Shown here: in pieces, positions 2,781 to 54,269 of the stretch
Layout: every line of letters starts with the position of its first letter
How positions within the stretch are numbered: the stretch's first letter is position 1
Source of the DNA: a virus
Direction: 5' to 3' (one strand)
Virus record (IMG/VR): IMGVR_UViG_3300036861_001106
Coordinates: 1 to 64,000 of that record
DNA: 64,000 bases
Position numbers and translations under genes: made by a program
Notes under the pieces: model-generated
Database searches by the model: none
What the model was told of the DNA's origin: nothing
What the model saw: only the letters and a program-made list of their open reading frames with translations

Positions 2781-3070
2781 CTTGCGCCTCCGTCCAGGTT
2801 CTTCCGCGGGCGCCCACTCCGCGGCCTGTCCTGCAGTCCTGCCACCCCCTCCGCGTTGAACCGGCGGCACCACAGCCGCACGCCGGTGGGACTCAAGCGG
2901 AGCTGCTCGGCCACGTAGTGGGGACCTGCGCCGGCGGTGAGGAGGATGATGGCGCGGGCGCGGCGGCCCTGGCGGGTGTCCCTTGCCACTCCCTGGTCGT
3001 AGGCCAGTGCGTGCAGCTCGGTGCGCTCAGCCGTGGTGGGCTGGCGTGGGGTGATTCGTCGCTCGCTCAA
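2777..3070 (-). CDS. Helix-turn-helix DNA-binding protein
   Basis: A 97-residue protein carrying a homeodomain-like HTH: RRARAIILLTAGA, then YVAEQLRLSPTGVRLWCRRF, then GLQDRPRSGRPRK. This is the N-terminal DNA-binding layout of IS630-type transposases and related regulators, but no transposase catalytic domain follows, so a stand-alone regulator is more likely. Start TTG 3070 has CGGAGG upstream and overlaps the previous stop (TTGA). It is the only obvious regulator in this operon and could control the divergent promoters at 4373-4423. Confidence 0.75.
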   Translation of the reverse strand: MSERRITPRQPTTAERTELHALAYDQGVARDTRQGRRARAIILLTAGAGPHYVAEQLRLSPTGVRLWCRRFNAEGVAGLQDRPRSGRPRKNLDGGAR

Positions 3071-33151: not shown

Positions 33152-36100
33152 TTGCCCTACGCCAGGACCAGCGAGCTGCCAGAGGGTGTCAAGGGTGCCC
33201 TGCCGAAGCGGGGTCAACGCATCTTTCGCGCTGCGTTCAATGCCGCTCACCGCACCTACGGTGGCAATGAGGAGCGGGCCTTCAAAGTGGCCTGGGCGGC
33301 GGTGAAGCGCGTCTTCAAGAAGAAGGGTGGCAAGTGGGTCAAGGCCAGCCAGTCTGATCTGACCACCCAGCAGCTCCTCCTGGACACGCAGCGGCTCTAC
33401 CAGGAGCACTGGCGCCGCAACCCCGAGGCGCTGCCTGCCCAGCGCACGGTCAACGACCTGCTGGCGCAGGTGGCAGCCAACCCGACACAGGACTTGCGAC
33501 TCCTGCGGCAGCTTGAGGGGCTCGGTGTCCCGTACTTTGACTTCGAGGCGCTTGTGCAGTCATACGCGAATCCAATGCCGTGTGCGCCTCACACCGATGA
33601 CTTTCCCGGCTCCCTGGACCACCGCATCCGGCGGGTGTGCTGCGCCGTGCGGGATGAGGGCGACGAGTACCTGGGCGAGTACGGGTACGTGCTGGCAGTC
33701 TACCCCAACTTCGCCGTCTGCTGCTCCCTGGACGAGGGCGATGAGGACACTGACTACTGGAAGGTTGACTACACGTTCAACCCGACGACGTTTGAGGTGG
33801 CACTGGGCGACGCCCAGCCGGTCGAGGTCCTGACCGTCGTGGTGCCGCATGAGGGGGAGGCGATGGAGACACCAGAGCGCGAGGGCCTGAACATCGGCGG
33901 GACTCAGACCGTGGTCGACCAGGAGGCCAAGTTCAAGACCGACAACGGTCAGCAGTTCTCCCGAGGTGCCTACCTCATCATCGGCGACCCTGACCTCCCC
34001 TCGACCTGGAAGGTGCGCGTGGAGGAGACGCCGGGCAAGGTGACGGTGCCGCAGCTTGGGCGTGCCTACGCAGCCCTGACCAAGGGCTTTCGGGGCAACA
34101 AGGTTGCAGCCTCCGGCGGTGACAAGTCGGCGGCGCTGGGCAAGCTCAAGTCGCTCTACAAGTCGCACGACGCCGAGTGGCCCGGTGACAAGCAGAGCGT
34201 GGCGCCTGACCTCACGGGGGCCTTGAACCAGGACCCCCAGTGGACCACCACGCCCACCTGGCTGGCCCAGGGGCAGCCGCCGCCGGGCGGGGACGAGGAC
34301 CTCGTCCAGACCTGCGCGCTTGAGCTTGAGCAGGTGGAGGTGGACAAGCAGACGGGAGTCATGCACATTCGAGCCTGCCTCACCGTCGGGAACGTCCTGA
34401 ACGCCATGGGGGAGGTCTACCCGACGCAGGTGTGGGAGGACAACCTCCCCTTCTTGCAGACAGCCGCCGAGCAGGGGGCGCTCCTCGGCGAGTCCAACCA
34501 CCCACCGCCGGGTGAGTCATCCCTGGACCGCTCCTGCATCCTCTGGGATGAGGTGTGGCTTGAGGGTGACCGGCTGATGGGCGCTGGTCGCGTGCTGCCC
34601 ACGGTGCCCTCTGGGCAGAACCTGCAGATGCTCCTGCAGCACGATGCCAAGGTGGACGTCTCCTCCCGGGGCAAGGGCACGCGCAAGCAGGGCGACTGGG
34701 TCAACCCCACCACCGGCGAGCGGTACCAGGATGCGTTGGTGATCCAGCGTGGGTACCGCTGCCGCACATTCGACGCTGTCGGGTCCGGCGCCTCGCCGGG
34801 CGCGACCATCACCACGCACGAGATGGCGCAGCAGGCCGACCTTACTGCTGAGGAGCACGACATGAAAGAGATCGAAACCCTGTCGCAGCAGGTCCAGGCG
34901 CAGGCTGCGACCCTCGCGCAGATCACCGAGACGCTGGCGAAGCTTGCCGCACCCCCGCCCGCCCCGACACCCCCTGCGGCGGGCGCTGCCACCGCCGCGC
35001 TGGATGTCCCGGTTACCGCACCAGCCACAGCAGCACTGCAGCAGGCAGCCCCGGACTTCGTGGCTACCCTCACCGCGGTGGCTGCGCAGCAGGAGCGGAT
35101 GATGCCCCTCCTGCTGGAGGAGCGCAAGCGGCAGCTCCTGGAGCAGGCGCGCACGGAGCACAAGCTCCCGCAACAGTGGCTCAACTCCTACCGCAACATC
35201 CTCAACGAGGGGCAGTGCAAGTCCATCGCGGAGCTGGAGGCGCACTCCGAGCGCATGCTGCCGGCGGTGCTCTCGATGTACAAGGAGCGCCCGCAGTTGG
35301 CGCACGGCTTCCAGGTCCAGCAGGACCCTGGGGAGCGCCCTGGCCCGAAGACCCCCCGGCAGATGATTGACTTCCTGGTCAAGGACGTGGACGACACGGT
35401 CCTCTACGACCCACAGAGCTTCATCCGGCAGGATGATGAGACAGGTGCGCCGGTGCACGCACCCGACTCGGTGAAGACCCGGCGGCGCCAACTGCGGCAG
35501 ATCCTGCTGAACATCGCCCAGCACCAGGATGACAACTGGAATGGCCCTGCTGCGCTGACGGCGTTTGTGCGGCTCTACCAGGGCTACGACCCCATCCAGG
35601 TCAAGGATGCATGGATGGACCAGGCCTGCGCTGACTGCACCACCTCGGTGGCAGCCGGTGGCGCGCCCTCCAGCGCGCTGTTCATCTTCCCGCTGGTCCG
35701 GGCGGTCTACCCGCAGCTCATCGCGCCGGAGATCGCCTCTATCCAGCCGATGGACCGGCCTGACGGGCGCATCTTCTTCCTGAATGCGTTCCGGTGCCCA
35801 GTGCCGGGCATGGACGTGGTGGACCAGTCGGGGGCCACGATCTCCAACCGGATGTTCATGGACCGCAGCTCGTCCTTCAGCTCGTCCTTCGCGGATCGCG
35901 CGGCTGAGTGCGACGAGGCGGCGAAGATCCAGCTCCGGCTGGCCTCCGTGTCGGTGACGGCGACGACCAAGGCCCTCACCTCCATCAACACGATTGAGGA
36001 GCTGCAGGACCTGCGGGCCTACCATGGGCTGGACGTGAACACCGAGCTGATGTCAGCCCTCTCCCGGGAGATTGCCCTGGAGTGGAACCTCACCGTGCTC

Positions 36101-36646
36101 AACGAGATGGTCGCGGGCGCCACGGCCAGCGCACGCTTCTATGGCACCAACGCTCCCACTGGCTACACGCAGAAGGAGTGGGCGGAGTACCTGCCGCGCT
36201 ACATCGACGCGGTGAGCATGGACATCTTCTCCAAGCGCCACGGCAACGCGACGCACGTCATCGCCGGGCCGCAGGCCATCCTCCGGTTGGGCGCAGCCTA
36301 CCGGCAGCCGGTGCAGCCGACGGGGGTCAATCCGCAGGTCTACCCCGGCCTGGCCGTGACGCCCTGGCTGGCTGGCACCAGCGCTGACATCAAGGTCTAC
36401 CAGACGAGCTTCTGGACAGGGGTGAACCAGAACACCATCCTGGTCATCCGCCGGGGTGCCGACTGGTCGGACACGGGGTACGTGTTCGCCCCCTACATCG
36501 ACTACATCGCGCCCCTCCTGACGCTGCCGGACACCTTCACCCAGAAGCAGGGTGTGATGTCCCGTGCAGCGCACCGGGTGGTCGTGGGTGACACCATGGG
36601 CACCATCACCATCGTGCCGGGTGACACCGGCGTTGAGGTGCCGTAG
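33152..36646 (+). CDS. ChaB domain-prohead protease-scaffold-major capsid polyprotein
   Basis: An uninterrupted 1164-residue frame. Residues 7-66 are a ChaB-type domain (LPEGVKGALPKRGQRIF, VAWAAVKRVF, GGKWV). Residues about 160-350 hold two unassigned segments. Residues about 385-570 match T4 gp21-like prohead proteases, with the active His in GESNHP (446-451) and Ser in SSRG (504-507). A coiled-coil and Pro/Ala linker follows (571-730), then a T4-like capsid protein to the end (LVRAVYPQLIAPEIASIQPMD and the C-terminal strands). Normally these are separate genes. TTG 33152 has AGGGGG upstream. ATG 34862 (residue 571) has its own GAGGAG and could give a scaffold-capsid product without the protease. 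Confidence 0.8.
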   Translation: MPYARTSELPEGVKGALPKRGQRIFRAAFNAAHRTYGGNEERAFKVAWAAVKRVFKKKGGKWVKASQSDLTTQQLLLDTQRLYQEHWRRNPEALPAQRTVNDLLAQVAANPTQDLRLLRQLEGLGVPYFDFEALVQSYANPMPCAPHTDDFPGSLDHRIRRVCCAVRDEGDEYLGEYGYVLAVYPNFAVCCSLDEGDEDTDYWKVDYTFNPTTFEVALGDAQPVEVLTVVVPHEGEAMETPEREGLNIGGTQTVVDQEAKFKTDNGQQFSRGAYLIIGDPDLPSTWKVRVEETPGKVTVPQLGRAYAALTKGFRGNKVAASGGDKSAALGKLKSLYKSHDAEWPGDKQSVAPDLTGALNQDPQWTTTPTWLAQGQPPPGGDEDLVQTCALELEQVEVDKQTGVMHIRACLTVGNVLNAMGEVYPTQVWEDNLPFLQTAAEQGALLGESNHPPPGESSLDRSCILWDEVWLEGDRLMGAGRVLPTVPSGQNLQMLLQHDAKVDVSSRGKGTRKQGDWVNPTTGERYQDALVIQRGYRCRTFDAVGSGASPGATITTHEMAQQADLTAEEHDMKEIETLSQQVQAQAATLAQITETLAKLAAPPPAPTPPAAGAATAALDVPVTAPATAALQQAAPDFVATLTAVAAQQERMMPLLLEERKRQLLEQARTEHKLPQQWLNSYRNILNEGQCKSIAELEAHSERMLPAVLSMYKERPQLAHGFQVQQDPGERPGPKTPRQMIDFLVKDVDDTVLYDPQSFIRQDDETGAPVHAPDSVKTRRRQLRQILLNIAQHQDDNWNGPAALTAFVRLYQGYDPIQVKDAWMDQACADCTTSVAAGGAPSSALFIFPLVRAVYPQLIAPEIASIQPMDRPDGRIFFLNAFRCPVPGMDVVDQSGATISNRMFMDRSSSFSSSFADRAAECDEAAKIQLRLASVSVTATTKALTSINTIEELQDLRAYHGLDVNTELMSALSREIALEWNLTVLNEMVAGATASARFYGTNAPTGYTQKEWAEYLPRYIDAVSMDIFSKRHGNATHVIAGPQAILRLGAAYRQPVQPTGVNPQVYPGLAVTPWLAGTSADIKVYQTSFWTGVNQNTILVIRRGADWSDTGYVFAPYIDYIAPLLTLPDTFTQKQGVMSRAAHRVVVGDTMGTITIVPGDTGVEVP

Positions 36647-46908: not shown

Positions 46909-47641
46909 GCAGCGCGAGCGCTGCCCCGCCTGTGCTCGGGACTTGCTGTACCCCCACCAGCGGGGACTTGGCTACTGCTACCACTGCTTCACCTACTGTG
47001 CTGCTGACCGACACACGACTGCGGTCTATGACCGTGCCTACGTGGCAGAGCGCTATGATCGGTACCCAGCCATGCAGCAGATGAGCGAGCTGCGCCTGCG
47101 CGTGTTGTGGCACGTCCTGAGCCTGCACGAGTGTGCTGCCACCGGCGAGCAGCTTCGCCGGGGCCGGCTCCTGGACGTGGGGTACGGGAATGGCAGCTTC
47201 ATTCGCGCCGCCGCTGCCGTCGGGTGGGCTGCCGTGGGGAATGACGTCAACCCCACCGAGTACCCCGGTGTGCGGCGCGTGGCGCTGCCGACAGACCCAC
47301 TGCCGCCGGAGGAGCGCTACCGGGTCATCACGTTCTTCGACTCCCTGGAGCACTTCGAGGACCTGGCCGCGCCACGAGCGGCAGCGCTCAGCACTGACTG
47401 GCTGATGATCAGCGTGCCCCGGGCTCCCCGGAGCTTCCCCAGTCGACCCTGGAAGCACTTTCGACCTGGGGAGCACCACCACTACTGGTGGAACCCCCGG
47501 TCGTTCGAGCTGATCTTCACGACGCCGGAGGTGCAGGCGCGGCTCGTCTACGCCGAGCACCCGGAGGACCACATTCGCGGGACACTGCCGGATGGAGTGC
47601 CGAACATCATGACCTGTGTCCTGAGGCTGGAGCGGCTGTGA
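46841..47641 (+). CDS. SAM-dependent methyltransferase with N-terminal zinc ribbon
   Basis: A 266-residue protein. An N-terminal CPAC and CYHC pair precedes a class I methyltransferase core: RLLDVGYGNGSFI (motif I), then FFDSLEHFED and LMISVPRAP. This layout is that of sugar or lipid C/O-methyltransferases of the type 12 group. ATG 46841 overlaps the previous gene by 68 bases; a TTG at 46859 is an alternative and the true start may lie further in. Confidence 0.65.
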   Translation: MVRSDNLTSSTPAPSPSSSCGAEQRERCPACARDLLYPHQRGLGYCYHCFTYCAADRHTTAVYDRAYVAERYDRYPAMQQMSELRLRVLWHVLSLHECAATGEQLRRGRLLDVGYGNGSFIRAAAAVGWAAVGNDVNPTEYPGVRRVALPTDPLPPEERYRVITFFDSLEHFEDLAAPRAAALSTDWLMISVPRAPRSFPSRPWKHFRPGEHHHYWWNPRSFELIFTTPEVQARLVYAEHPEDHIRGTLPDGVPNIMTCVLRLERL

Positions 47642-48300
47642 GACACGACATCTTCCACGTCAGCGAGCGGTACCCAGTGCCCATCTCCAGCTTTGCAGTG
47701 CCCTCGGACATCACCATCTTTGGCGGCCGCTGGGCAGATGACACGTATTACGCGGATTACGCGGGCATTGCCAGGAAGTACCGGCCCGAGGAGATCCTGG
47801 AGATCGGGGTGCGCTTCGGTTACTCCGGCATTGCGATGTGCCTGGGTGCCCTTGCAGGACGCCCAAATTACGATCCAGAGGTGTGGATCCTCGGCTACGA
47901 TGGAATCGACGCTTGCTTCTTCAGTCACCCTGAAGATCCAGCAGTCTCAAGCAACGAGGTTGCCAGCGCGAACTTCGCAGCCCAGACGCCAAGCGTTGGT
48001 GTTGAGCTGTTTCGCCACGACACACGAGCGGGGCTGCCCGAGAAGGTGTGTCAGTACCTTGGAGTCTATGACCTTGTCAACGTTGACGGGGACCACTCCT
48101 ACGAGGGGTGCTACCGCGACCTTGTCAACATCTGGCCCCTGACTGCCCCTGGTGCGGTTGTGATCGTAGACGACACGGGGATGACCGACGTGAAGCGCGC
48201 GGTGGAGCAGTTCCGTGACGAGCACCTTGCGGAGTTGCAGGCGTTCCAGTGGCACGAGAATGAGCGTGGGCTGGCGCTCCTGCAGCGGAACGCAGGCTGA
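47638..48300 (+). CDS. Class I methyltransferase (Methyltransf_24-like)
   Basis: A 220-residue protein with EILEIGVRFGYSGIAMCLGAL, ILGYDGIDACF, YDLVNVDGDHSYEGCYRDL and GAVVIVDDTGM, the order seen in methyltransferase 24 and cephalosporin-hydroxylase-like proteins. GTG 47638 overlaps the previous stop. It is a clear paralogue of the gene at 48843. Confidence 0.7.
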   Translation: MRHDIFHVSERYPVPISSFAVPSDITIFGGRWADDTYYADYAGIARKYRPEEILEIGVRFGYSGIAMCLGALAGRPNYDPEVWILGYDGIDACFFSHPEDPAVSSNEVASANFAAQTPSVGVELFRHDTRAGLPEKVCQYLGVYDLVNVDGDHSYEGCYRDLVNIWPLTAPGAVVIVDDTGMTDVKRAVEQFRDEHLAELQAFQWHENERGLALLQRNAG

Positions 48301-48842: not shown

Positions 48843-49526
48843 TTGGTTGTCGAGGTGGAGTTCCTGACCGAGCCGGAGTGGTGGAAATTTGATCGTCGGC
48901 TGGTGGACCAGGTGGCCTTCCCGCTGGGTGACCGGTACCCGCAGGAGATCATCGACCGGTACTTCGCGGTCTACGGTGGCCTAGTCCACAAGTTCCGCCC
49001 ACGACACATGCTGGAGATTGGCGTGCGGTTCGGCTACACGGGCATCGTCTGCTGCGCGGCAGCGCTGGCGGCGGGCGTCGAGCGCTTCGAGTACCTGGGC
49101 ATCGACGATGAGAGCTACCACGCCGGGTCGTGCCAGCAGGCCAACGACAACTTCCGCATCGTTGGGTTCCACGCGCGCTGTCGGGCGCTGCGGTGGAACT
49201 CCTTCGACGGCATCCCGGCCAAGCTGGGGACCTTTGACCTCATCCACGTCGACGGCAACCACGACAAGCACGGGGTGCTCAATGACCTCATGAACGTGTG
49301 GCCCATCCTGCACCAGCGGGGCTTCGTGATCCTCGATGACTACTACTTCCCCCAGATCAGGGAGGCCATCGACCAGTGGCTGGAGGAGTTCGTGGACAGT
49401 GACAACGTCGTGGCGGTGCAGTTCGTGGAGGATGAGCGTGGCCACGCCATCATTCGCAAGACAGGGCTGCGCAGGGAGGAGCTGCAGGACCAGGAGGGGT
49501 TGGTGATGGAGGCCCTCACCCTGTGA
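48843..49526 (+). CDS. Class I methyltransferase, paralogue of 47638
   Basis: A 227-residue protein: MLEIGVRFGYTGIVCCAAAL, YLGIDDESYH, FDLIHVDGNHDKHGVLNDL and GFVILDDYYF match the gene at 47638 motif by motif. TTG 48843 has GGGGAGG upstream. The pair brackets the P-loop gene, suggesting one modification pathway. Confidence 0.7.
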   Translation: MVVEVEFLTEPEWWKFDRRLVDQVAFPLGDRYPQEIIDRYFAVYGGLVHKFRPRHMLEIGVRFGYTGIVCCAAALAAGVERFEYLGIDDESYHAGSCQQANDNFRIVGFHARCRALRWNSFDGIPAKLGTFDLIHVDGNHDKHGVLNDLMNVWPILHQRGFVILDDYYFPQIREAIDQWLEEFVDSDNVVAVQFVEDERGHAIIRKTGLRREELQDQEGLVMEALTL

Positions 49527-52172: not shown

Positions 52173-52340
52173 ATGACACTCAACCTGCTGCAGACTGTCG
52201 ACGCCCCGGAGAAGCCCATGGACCCGACGGCCCCGTGGTGGCCCAGGGAGGAGCCCCTGGCGCCGCCCACGGAGCCGGACGTGCCCTACGAGGCGCCGCC
52301 GGCGGACGATGAGCCGGACGACGATGAGGATGACGACTAG
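52173..52340 (+). CDS. Small acidic Pro-rich protein
   Basis: A 55-residue protein, Pro-rich in the middle and ending in a run of Asp and Glu (DDEPDDDEDDD). It is probably disordered. ATG 52173 has GGGAGA upstream. Its stop shares a CTAG with the convergent endonuclease gene. Confidence 0.5.
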   Translation: MTLNLLQTVDAPEKPMDPTAPWWPREEPLAPPTEPDVPYEAPPADDEPDDDEDDD

Positions 52341-53203
52341 CCGAAGCGGAGCTGGTCCCGGTACTTCGGGAGCGCCAGGTAGTGGTCCAGGACCCGCTGG
52401 CGCTTCCGGGGGAGGTAGATCGTGGCCCCCTCGTAGAGGAGGTTCACGATGGGGAGGCACTGAGCGTTGCCGTGAAACTGCAGCTTCCAGGCGGTCTTGC
52501 TGTTCTTGGCAGCGACGGTGTGACCACCAATCTCTGGTAGTTCGATTTTCAGATACTCATGTGCAGCCTTGGCAAATGCTTCGGTGGACACGATCTTGAT
52601 GGCGGCGTTCGGTGGGCATACCCCATCCTTGCGAGGGCGATTTCCAGCCTGGGATCGAAACATGCCGTCGCCGTCGAAGTAGCCGCGAAGATAATGCGGC
52701 TGCAAACGCCACGAGATGAAGTGCCAGGTAAGCTTTGTCGTCTTTCCTGGTATGATGCCAAATTTCTCAACATCTCGTAGAAGGTTGACCGAAACCAATG
52801 CGAGCCGGCTCGTGGGGTGTCCATTCGCAAGGTAATGGTACAGGGGATTTTCACACTCTGTGTCTCTCCTGAAAGACTCCAGGTGATCGGCATCTTTCGA
52901 TGAAAGATTTACGATTACAGAGTTTCTCTGCGGACAGGCGTAGCCGTCTGCAGCAAGGAAACCAAGCCAGTAGGCTTGGCGTTCAGTCTCAATTGAAGAA
53001 AAGTAGCCTTCATTGAGGCTGAACTTTCGCTGGCAAGCTGATCGGTCGCGCCTAGTTATGCCTGCCATTTTCAGACAGGCGTAGATTGGCATCTCTGAGC
53101 AGCCAAACAAAGCAGCGAGTTCGTAGGCGCTCTTGCCCTCTCGGTAGAGACGGCAAACGACTTCCTTCTGACATTCTGTGAGATGGCCTCTGTAGTTGCT
53201 CAT
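52337..53203 (-). CDS. Free-standing LAGLIDADG homing endonuclease
   Basis: A 288-residue protein. Residues 9-50 form an HTH domain (ELAALFGCSEMPIYACL). Two LAGLIDADG helices follow, YWLGFLAADGY (78-88) and YLRGYFDGDGMF (171-182), each with the catalytic Asp, so one chain makes a complete two-fold nuclease. ATG 53203 was chosen because a consensus promoter ends five bases before it. The coding DNA is poorer in GC than its neighbours. It lies antisense and directly upstream of a gene with two group I introns, and may promote their spread. Confidence 0.8.
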   Translation of the reverse strand: MSNYRGHLTECQKEVVCRLYREGKSAYELAALFGCSEMPIYACLKMAGITRRDRSACQRKFSLNEGYFSSIETERQAYWLGFLAADGYACPQRNSVIVNLSSKDADHLESFRRDTECENPLYHYLANGHPTSRLALVSVNLLRDVEKFGIIPGKTTKLTWHFISWRLQPHYLRGYFDGDGMFRSQAGNRPRKDGVCPPNAAIKIVSTEAFAKAAHEYLKIELPEIGGHTVAAKNSKTAWKLQFHGNAQCLPIVNLLYEGATIYLPRKRQRVLDHYLALPKYRDQLRFG

Positions 53204-53208
53204 ATCGG

Positions 53209-53237
53209 AGTCTACAGATTTTGTCTCCAAATGTCAA
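53209..53237 (-). promoter_or_regulatory. Promoter of the LAGLIDADG gene (leaderless)
   Basis: On the minus strand TTGACA (53232-53237) and TAGACT (53209-53214) have a 17-base spacer, and the ATG comes five bases after the -10 box, so the mRNA would be leaderless. Confidence 0.8.
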
Positions 53238-53295
53238 CTGGCTGCCACGACTTTTTGCGGGAGCGTGGCTAAAAAGTGAAAGGAGGTGCGGTCTC

Positions 53296-54269
53296 ATGGC
53301 CGCTACCTTTCTCGTGGAACCAGCGTAACGGAGCGAGCGGCACGGCGACAGACCTCGGATCAAGCGGAAATTTGGCTTCAAGAAGTTGGCCCCTCGCGTA
53401 GGAATGCGTGAGTGAAAACGGCGTGAATTGCGGGAAGCCTACAGCGAAGGCCATGGTAATCCGCAGCCAAGCTCGACAGGGCACTGGTTGTCGAGAAGGT
53501 TCAGAGACTAGAGGGTGAGTCCCAACAATAAGCCCTCCACGAGCGCGCCGCACCCAGATCGGGTGATGAGATAGTCCAAGCATCGGGGAAACCCGGTGAA
53601 CTAGAACTTCAAGACCACGGACACGACGGGGATTGGAGATTACGCCGCGAATCCGGTCTCAGCCGGCTCGAACTCAATGGAAGTCGTACTGCGGATGCAC
53701 TTCACAGGGTCTGCGGCCCCTCCAGCCTGAAAGGGCTGGTCGTGATGGCGTGAATTCGGGGAAGCCTACAGCGAAAGCCATGGTAATCCCGACCCAAGCT
53801 CTCCAGGAATGGTGAGAAGGGCTAGAGACCAGAGCAAGTAGACGAGACCCGTCGAACGCTCCACGAGCGCGCCACACCCCTCGGGGTGATGAGATGGTCC
53901 GACACTCCGTGGAAACGCGGAGAGCCTTGGATAAAGAGCCAAGGTGTAACTGGTGCCTTCAACCGCATCGCCGACTTCCGATTCTGGCAATCGACGGCGT
54001 TCTCGCCGTCCACCGGCTTGCAGGTCTTCTGGTCCGGCACGCAGGTCATCTACCTGCAGCCGACCACCGGCACGTCGTCCATCGCCACGTCGTCCATCCC
54101 GACGACCGACCCTGGCACGGCGAACGTCAGCGTGGGTGGCTCCCTGACCGGATGCCTGACGACATCTGGTTTTACGGACCACATCTACCTTCAGCTCAGG
54201 ACTGCGTCCAACGCTGCGGCAGGTGACACATCGCTCGGAACTTTCACGGGCAGCTACACTGAGAACTAA
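53296..54269 (+). CDS. Small structural protein split by two group I introns
   Basis: Proposed exons are 53296-53315, 53631-53710 and 53947-54269, which join in frame to 140 codons. ATG 53296 has AAGGAGGTG seven bases upstream; the unspliced frame stops after ten codons. Exon 1 encodes MAATFLV, exon 2 IGDYAANPVSAGSNS and VVLRMHFTG, exon 3 TGAFNRIADFRFWQS and a Thr/Ser-rich remainder typical of small phage surface proteins. Exon 1 ends in the U of a U-G pair, and intron 1 can only end at G53630 to keep frame. The exact ends of exon 2 and start of exon 3 are less certain. Confidence 0.65.
53316..53630 (+). ncRNA. Group I intron 1
   Basis: About 315 nt. P1 pairs exon CTCGT with GCGAG (53333-53337), with the splice-site U on G. 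The core strings AATTGCGGGAAGCC (P), AATCCGCAGCC (Q), GTTCAGAGACTA (R) and GATAGTCC-like S element all occur in order. P4 is TGCGG with CCGCA, P7 pairs GACTA with TAGTC, and a P9 hairpin carries a GAAA tetraloop (CATCGGG, CCCGGTG). No reading frame of note lies inside, so it depends on an outside endonuclease for mobility. Confidence 0.8.
53711..53946 (+). ncRNA. Group I intron 2
   Basis: About 236 nt, closely related to intron 1 in its core (both hold GGCGTGAATT, GGAAGCCTACAGCGAA and GCCATGGTAATC). P4 is TCGGG with CCCGA and P7 GACCA with TGGTC, covarying with intron 1. P2 (CCAGCC with GGCTGG) and P9 (CTCCGTG, GAAA, CGCGGAG) are clear. P1 is short (GGGT with GCCC). The 3' end is placed at G53946; G53943, G53952 or G53955 would also keep frame. 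Confidence 0.75.

Follow-up and report, generated by a model that had tools for sequence, protein, structure and literature searches.

The window analysed here is a stretch of 64,000 nucleotides, positions 1 to 64,000 of the IMG/VR record IMGVR_UViG_3300036861_001106, a 109.5-kb viral contig with a T4-like portal gene and a T4-like capsid gene, and its source is an uncultured T4-like phage. On the plus strand, a small gene is split into three exons by two group I introns that lack open reading frames. Exon 1 (53296..53377, 82 nt where 81 are expected) encodes MAATF, passes through a one-base slip and continues with SWNQRNGASGTATDLGSSGNLA, and is followed by intron 1 (53378..53604, 227 nt, last base G53604). 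Exon 2 (53605..53710, 106 nt) encodes NFKTTDTTGIGDYAANPVSAGSNSMEVVLRMHFTG and provides the first base of a further codon, intron 2 (53711..53955, 245 nt) ends with G53955, and exon 3 (53956..54269) has 314 nt including the stop codon. The start codon ATG at 53296 is preceded by a strong ribosome-binding site, AAGGAGGT, at 53280-53287; an upstream GTG (53276), in frame with the part of exon 1 that follows the slip, was rejected as a start, as this strong ribosome-binding site would then fall inside the gene. A free-standing LAGLIDADG homing endonuclease gene (52337..53230, minus strand) is oriented divergently and lies 65 bases upstream of the ATG. The split gene, of about 166 codons, is a late gene, probably for a virion-associated protein. 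Its product matches no PHROGs or Pfam family, and the AlphaFold model obtained from four homologues was unreliable (mean pLDDT 42, strands only).

Over positions 25000-63700, the window shares the order of most of its structural genes with G001, a 63-kb viral contig (IMGVR_UViG_3300005534_000015) without group I introns above the cut-off, at about 30-54% protein identity. Within this region, an ORF of 1164 aa at 33152-36646 (+) combines a ChaB domain (residues 9-64), the T4-type prohead protease domain Peptidase_S77 (404-516) and Gp23 (901-1143); judging from these domains, its product is apparently a polyprotein of protease and major capsid protein Gp23, and the G001 counterpart is of essentially the same length (1153 aa, 47% identical). 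In addition, two methyltransferase-like neighbours at 47488-48300 and 48843-49526 both match the same G001 gene, g1_41232_41885 (34% and 43% identity), which points to a duplication in tandem.

An earlier note on this DNA had proposed two group I cores about 300 bases apart in one small gene, and covariance-model searches with Rfam bore this out. The first core (53369-53598) matches RF00028 with 79.4 bits (cut-off 50; E 1.6e-18 to 6e-20) and the second (53701-53922) with 46.7 bits, just below that cut-off (E 3e-10). Both matches are full-length (1-253), with the conserved catalytic core and its pairings present, and they represent the only two group I introns that Rfam detects in the whole 109.5-kb record. 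The end rules of group I introns hold at both, as each 5' exon ends in a U paired with G in P1 and each intron ends in G. In intron 1, P1 is formed by 53374-53377 with 53388-53391, where the exon-1 end GGCU pairs with GGCC, beginning with U53377-G53388. Directly before this guide, GAAGUU (53382-53387) pairs perfectly with AACUUC (53605-53610) to give a 6-bp P10, and when the intron start was shuffled 20,000 times, a P1 of at least 4 bp together with a contiguous P10 of 6 bp or longer arose in only 9 cases. The P1 of intron 2 consists of 53707-53710 with 53716-53719 (GGGU/GCCC, U53710-G53716), and its P10 is weak, with 1 contiguous bp. Both sites of intron 1, as well as the 5' site of its sister, were predicted from RNA pairing before the result of the homologue scan was seen; the latter site, U53710, is also the one implied by the exon sizes of the earlier note, which were right on this point. 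The choice for the 3' end of intron 2, which is less certain than that of intron 1, at that stage lay between 53946 and 53952, and it took the homologues to place it at 53955.

Four homologues from other uncultured phages (L006, L007, L008 and L009) carry the gene uninterrupted and align over its full length, both intron sites included, and no group I intron above the cut-off is present in the records of these relatives. Three of them were found with a degenerate probe alignment and the fourth was added with an alignment of real homologues. Row 1 of the probe was a composite translation of the window DNA with assumed junctions, against which the hits were confirmed, and rows 2-3 were invented variants that served to loosen the search and carry no evidential weight; all later comparisons used real homologues only. 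No relatives came from searching phages and plasmids directly at the protein level, from a single-sequence scan of viral contigs or from a scan of genome contigs, and scans of viral contigs with the portal and a large tail protein gave no matches.

These homologues provided a measure of the splice sites at the protein level. Every splice with a U before the intron, a G at the intron end and an open frame was scored against a profile built from the four intron-free homologues, with no window sequence in it. For intron 1, 53377/53605 ranked first of 232 candidates, leading by 8 bits (237.7 bits against 229.6 for the next), and for intron 2, 53710/53956 ranked first of 194 (237.7 bits). Two other boundaries of intron 2 were rejected, namely 53701/53947, which scores 0.5 bits lower (237.2 bits) but has no P1, and 53710/53952, which adds one residue and scores 4.5 bits lower. 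The ranking by protein profile agrees with the RNA pairing, that is, with the P1 and 6-bp P10 of intron 1 and the P1 of intron 2. Across the first junction the protein reads GNLA followed by NFK, as in L007, with GNL and NFK invariant among the intron-free homologues, and across the second it reads HFTG(S)FN, where L008 has HFTGTFN. Removal of the introns thus restores the length and the residues of the homologues at both junctions, and the slip in exon 1 lies away from them. With one exon-1 base omitted, the supported model reaches 245.6 bits for the whole protein; read from 53309, it scores 237.7 bits.

The exon layout of the earlier note had to be revised in the light of these data. It placed the end of a 20-base exon 1 at U53315, an exon 2 of 80 bases at 53631-53710 and an exon 3 of 323 bases from 53947, giving a product of 140 codons, whereas homologue profile and RNA pairing together give 82, 106 and 314 bases and about 166 residues. 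The earlier layout is in frame from the ATG, and a 5-bp P1 (CUCGU/GCGAG) can be drawn for it, but its intron 1 would lack a P10 and would swallow the codons for SWNQRNGASGTATDLGSSGNLA and, across the junction, NFKTTDTTG. Intact homologues span that proposed intron as protein, retaining the roughly 31 residues lost in the earlier layout, and the joined protein reaches only 183.7 bits against 245.6. In addition, a comparison with L006 shows the changes typical of coding sequence in the exon-1 DNA as far as 53377. The 20-base first exon is refuted. A different possibility is that both introns are fossils that have lost splicing, for which the sub-threshold score of intron 2 and its lack of a P10 could be taken as signs. 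However, full-length core matches, P1 helices and correct end bases in both introns, together with frame-exact junctions, make such decay decidedly improbable, and from these features the introns are very likely real and competent for splicing.

The unspliced stop after ten codons that had been noticed earlier is indeed present (TAA at 53326, from the ATG at 53296), and it results from one extra base in exon 1. The slip occurs right after codon 5 (ATG GCC GCT ACC TTT C TCG TGG AAC CAG), the extra base relative to the homologues, none of which has it, lying within 53309..53313 (TTT C TCG, plus strand), where its exact identity is ambiguous. Because of this slip, the spliced message as recorded would not yield the full protein unless the record is in error or recoding takes place. 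Past the slip, exon 1 is identical to L006 at 18 of 22 residues, with 3, 6 and 12 differences at codon positions 1, 2 and 3, respectively. A single stray base in so well conserved an exon suggests a mistake in sequencing or assembly, or else a minority variant, in a gene intact apart from its introns, and we favour this reading by a little better than even odds. Against it, no other slip occurs in the 28 other genes conserved between the record and G001, the record of L006 (8,399 residues aligned over 29 pairs, one of which is exon 3 of the split gene), and a DNA-pattern scan for near-identical copies of the exon-1 start returned none, hence no near-identical contig for a cross-check. As those 28 genes are unbroken, errors are not frequent in the contig, and the candidate causes of the slip are an isolated error, a genuine mutation and recoding. 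The cleanness of the record, as well as the likewise odd start region of the L007 homologue, would fit a real and recent mutation in a gene that is now dead or dispensable and whose introns may decay too, but no damage is seen in the remaining frame, at either splice junction or in the ribozyme cores, and this reading is possible though doubtful. Programmed +1 ribosomal frameshifting at UUU_C in codon 5 seems unlikely. The tRNA-Phe could shift its pairing from UUU to UUC, a stop follows in the zero frame five codons later, and the slip sequence of influenza PA-X, UCC_UUU_CGU, includes UUU_C (PMC3498833). However, beyond the likeness to the PA-X site nothing else speaks for recoding here, no homologue has such a slip, and the site is without a rare codon, stop or Shine-Dalgarno-like stimulator.

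The two introns are sisters, being 76% identical (159 of 210 aligned positions) with an alignment score of 206, where shuffled sequences average 79 (sd 9, maximum 100). Both have GGCCCC at the guide position, and in a shifted register each guide can pair with the exon end of the other intron (GGCU and GGGU). Since the shared guide can pair with both exon ends, one intron most likely arose from the other by insertion at the second site, probably copying itself there with the help of this guide; the direction of copying and its mechanism, be it reverse splicing or a DNA-level event, we infer rather than read from the alignment. The shared guide also makes exon skipping possible, which would break the frame as exon 2 has 106 bases, and exon skipping has been reported in multi-intron phage genes (PMC11878797).

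The product of the adjoining gene at 52337-53230 matches PF14528 above the cut-off and phrog_4645 with E 7e-45, and its translation shows by eye two LAGLIDADG motifs in one chain, WLGFLAADG and LRGYFDGDG, with their acidic residues. In L006, a related LAGLIDADG gene (1834-2958) occupies the same slot in the same orientation beside the intron-free gene; it is the sole copy in that record and is 34% identical to the endonuclease of the window over residues 28-296 (E 2.5e-35). The slot of L007 is filled by an Endo VII-type gene, and neither a LAGLIDADG nor an Endo VII-type gene is present in the slot of L008 or L009. With different endonuclease classes, and introns in one lineage only, the slot looks like a homing hot spot. 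Behind the Endo VII-type gene of L007, at 2985-3024, the start ATG is replaced by ATC, with a good ribosome-binding site before it, so that, of the three genomes in which an endonuclease gene occupies the slot, two have an odd start region, with a frame slip in the window and a missing ATG in L007. Introns without ORFs and an adjoining free-standing endonuclease gene form the layout of collaborative (trans) homing, as it has been described for such pairs (PMC3984707, PMC2988022, PMC10448857).

We therefore propose, with a probability of roughly 80%, that two sister group I introns without ORFs reside in one gene and derive their mobility from the divergent LAGLIDADG gene in trans. The introns, their boundaries and their sisterhood can be read from the DNA, as can the endonuclease gene and the presence of a related one next to an intron-free allele, and from these we infer splicing, intron copying, cleavage in the split gene and co-homing. 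Each intron would fold into a ribozyme, in which a P1 helix with a U-G pair at its end sets the 5' splice site, and would excise itself after its terminal G. The divergent LAGLIDADG enzyme most likely supplies mobility in trans, and would do so by cutting intron-free alleles of the split gene, whose repair would bring in both the endonuclease gene and the introns close to it. As no relative carrying these introns was found in two DNA-pattern scans for sister introns, this mobility is not seen directly. A more elaborate version, namely that one endonuclease keeps both sister introns, that the second arose by GGCCCC-guided reverse splicing and that translation needs a +1 slip at codon 5, appears remote.

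In little space, the locus naturally unites two closely related introns at adjacent sites in a small gene, guides that can each read both sites, and a free-standing endonuclease gene with a relative beside the intron-free gene. Less than 2 kb of DNA would thus suffice to test the spread of introns within a gene, the skipping of an exon between sister introns and homing in trans. Sister introns with an adjoining endonuclease gene thus represent a good test case. Furthermore, a one-base frame slip can mislead the placement of splice sites, for which intron-free homologues are needed.

Several introns per phage gene are already known, and the window holds one more case of this kind. A gene of phage Twort with two or three group I introns is said to have been described by Landthaler and Shub in 1999. 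Two or three group I introns per gene, separated by small internal exons, are likewise reported for Bastillevirinae, so that the description of the arrangement as unusual in phages was overstated; those introns are longer on average, though, and lie mostly in polymerase, terminase and nucleotide-metabolism genes (PMC11878797). The tail-gene intron of mycobacteriophage BAKA is similarly short (265 nt), lacks an ORF, resides in a phage structural gene and was recognised via an intron-free homologue of the same length, but it is a single intron from another phage group whose splicing was shown by RT-PCR (PMC3706429). In T4, as is proposed for the LAGLIDADG enzyme of the window, a free-standing enzyme from the neighbouring slot, MobE, mobilises an intron that is unable to mobilise itself, that of nrdB, although MobE is an HNH enzyme and the nrdB intron still holds a defunct endonuclease gene (PMC2988022). 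Close parallels in layout are the psbA intron of S-PM2 with F-CphI and the T3/T7-like cases, in which an intron without an ORF in a phage gene lies beside a free-standing endonuclease gene (PMC3984707, PMC10448857), and the Endo VII-type enzyme in the slot of L007 belongs to the catalytic class of F-CphI (PMC6083498). In contrast to these systems, the window combines two sister introns in one gene with a LAGLIDADG enzyme, whose cleavage at the insertion sites is putative.
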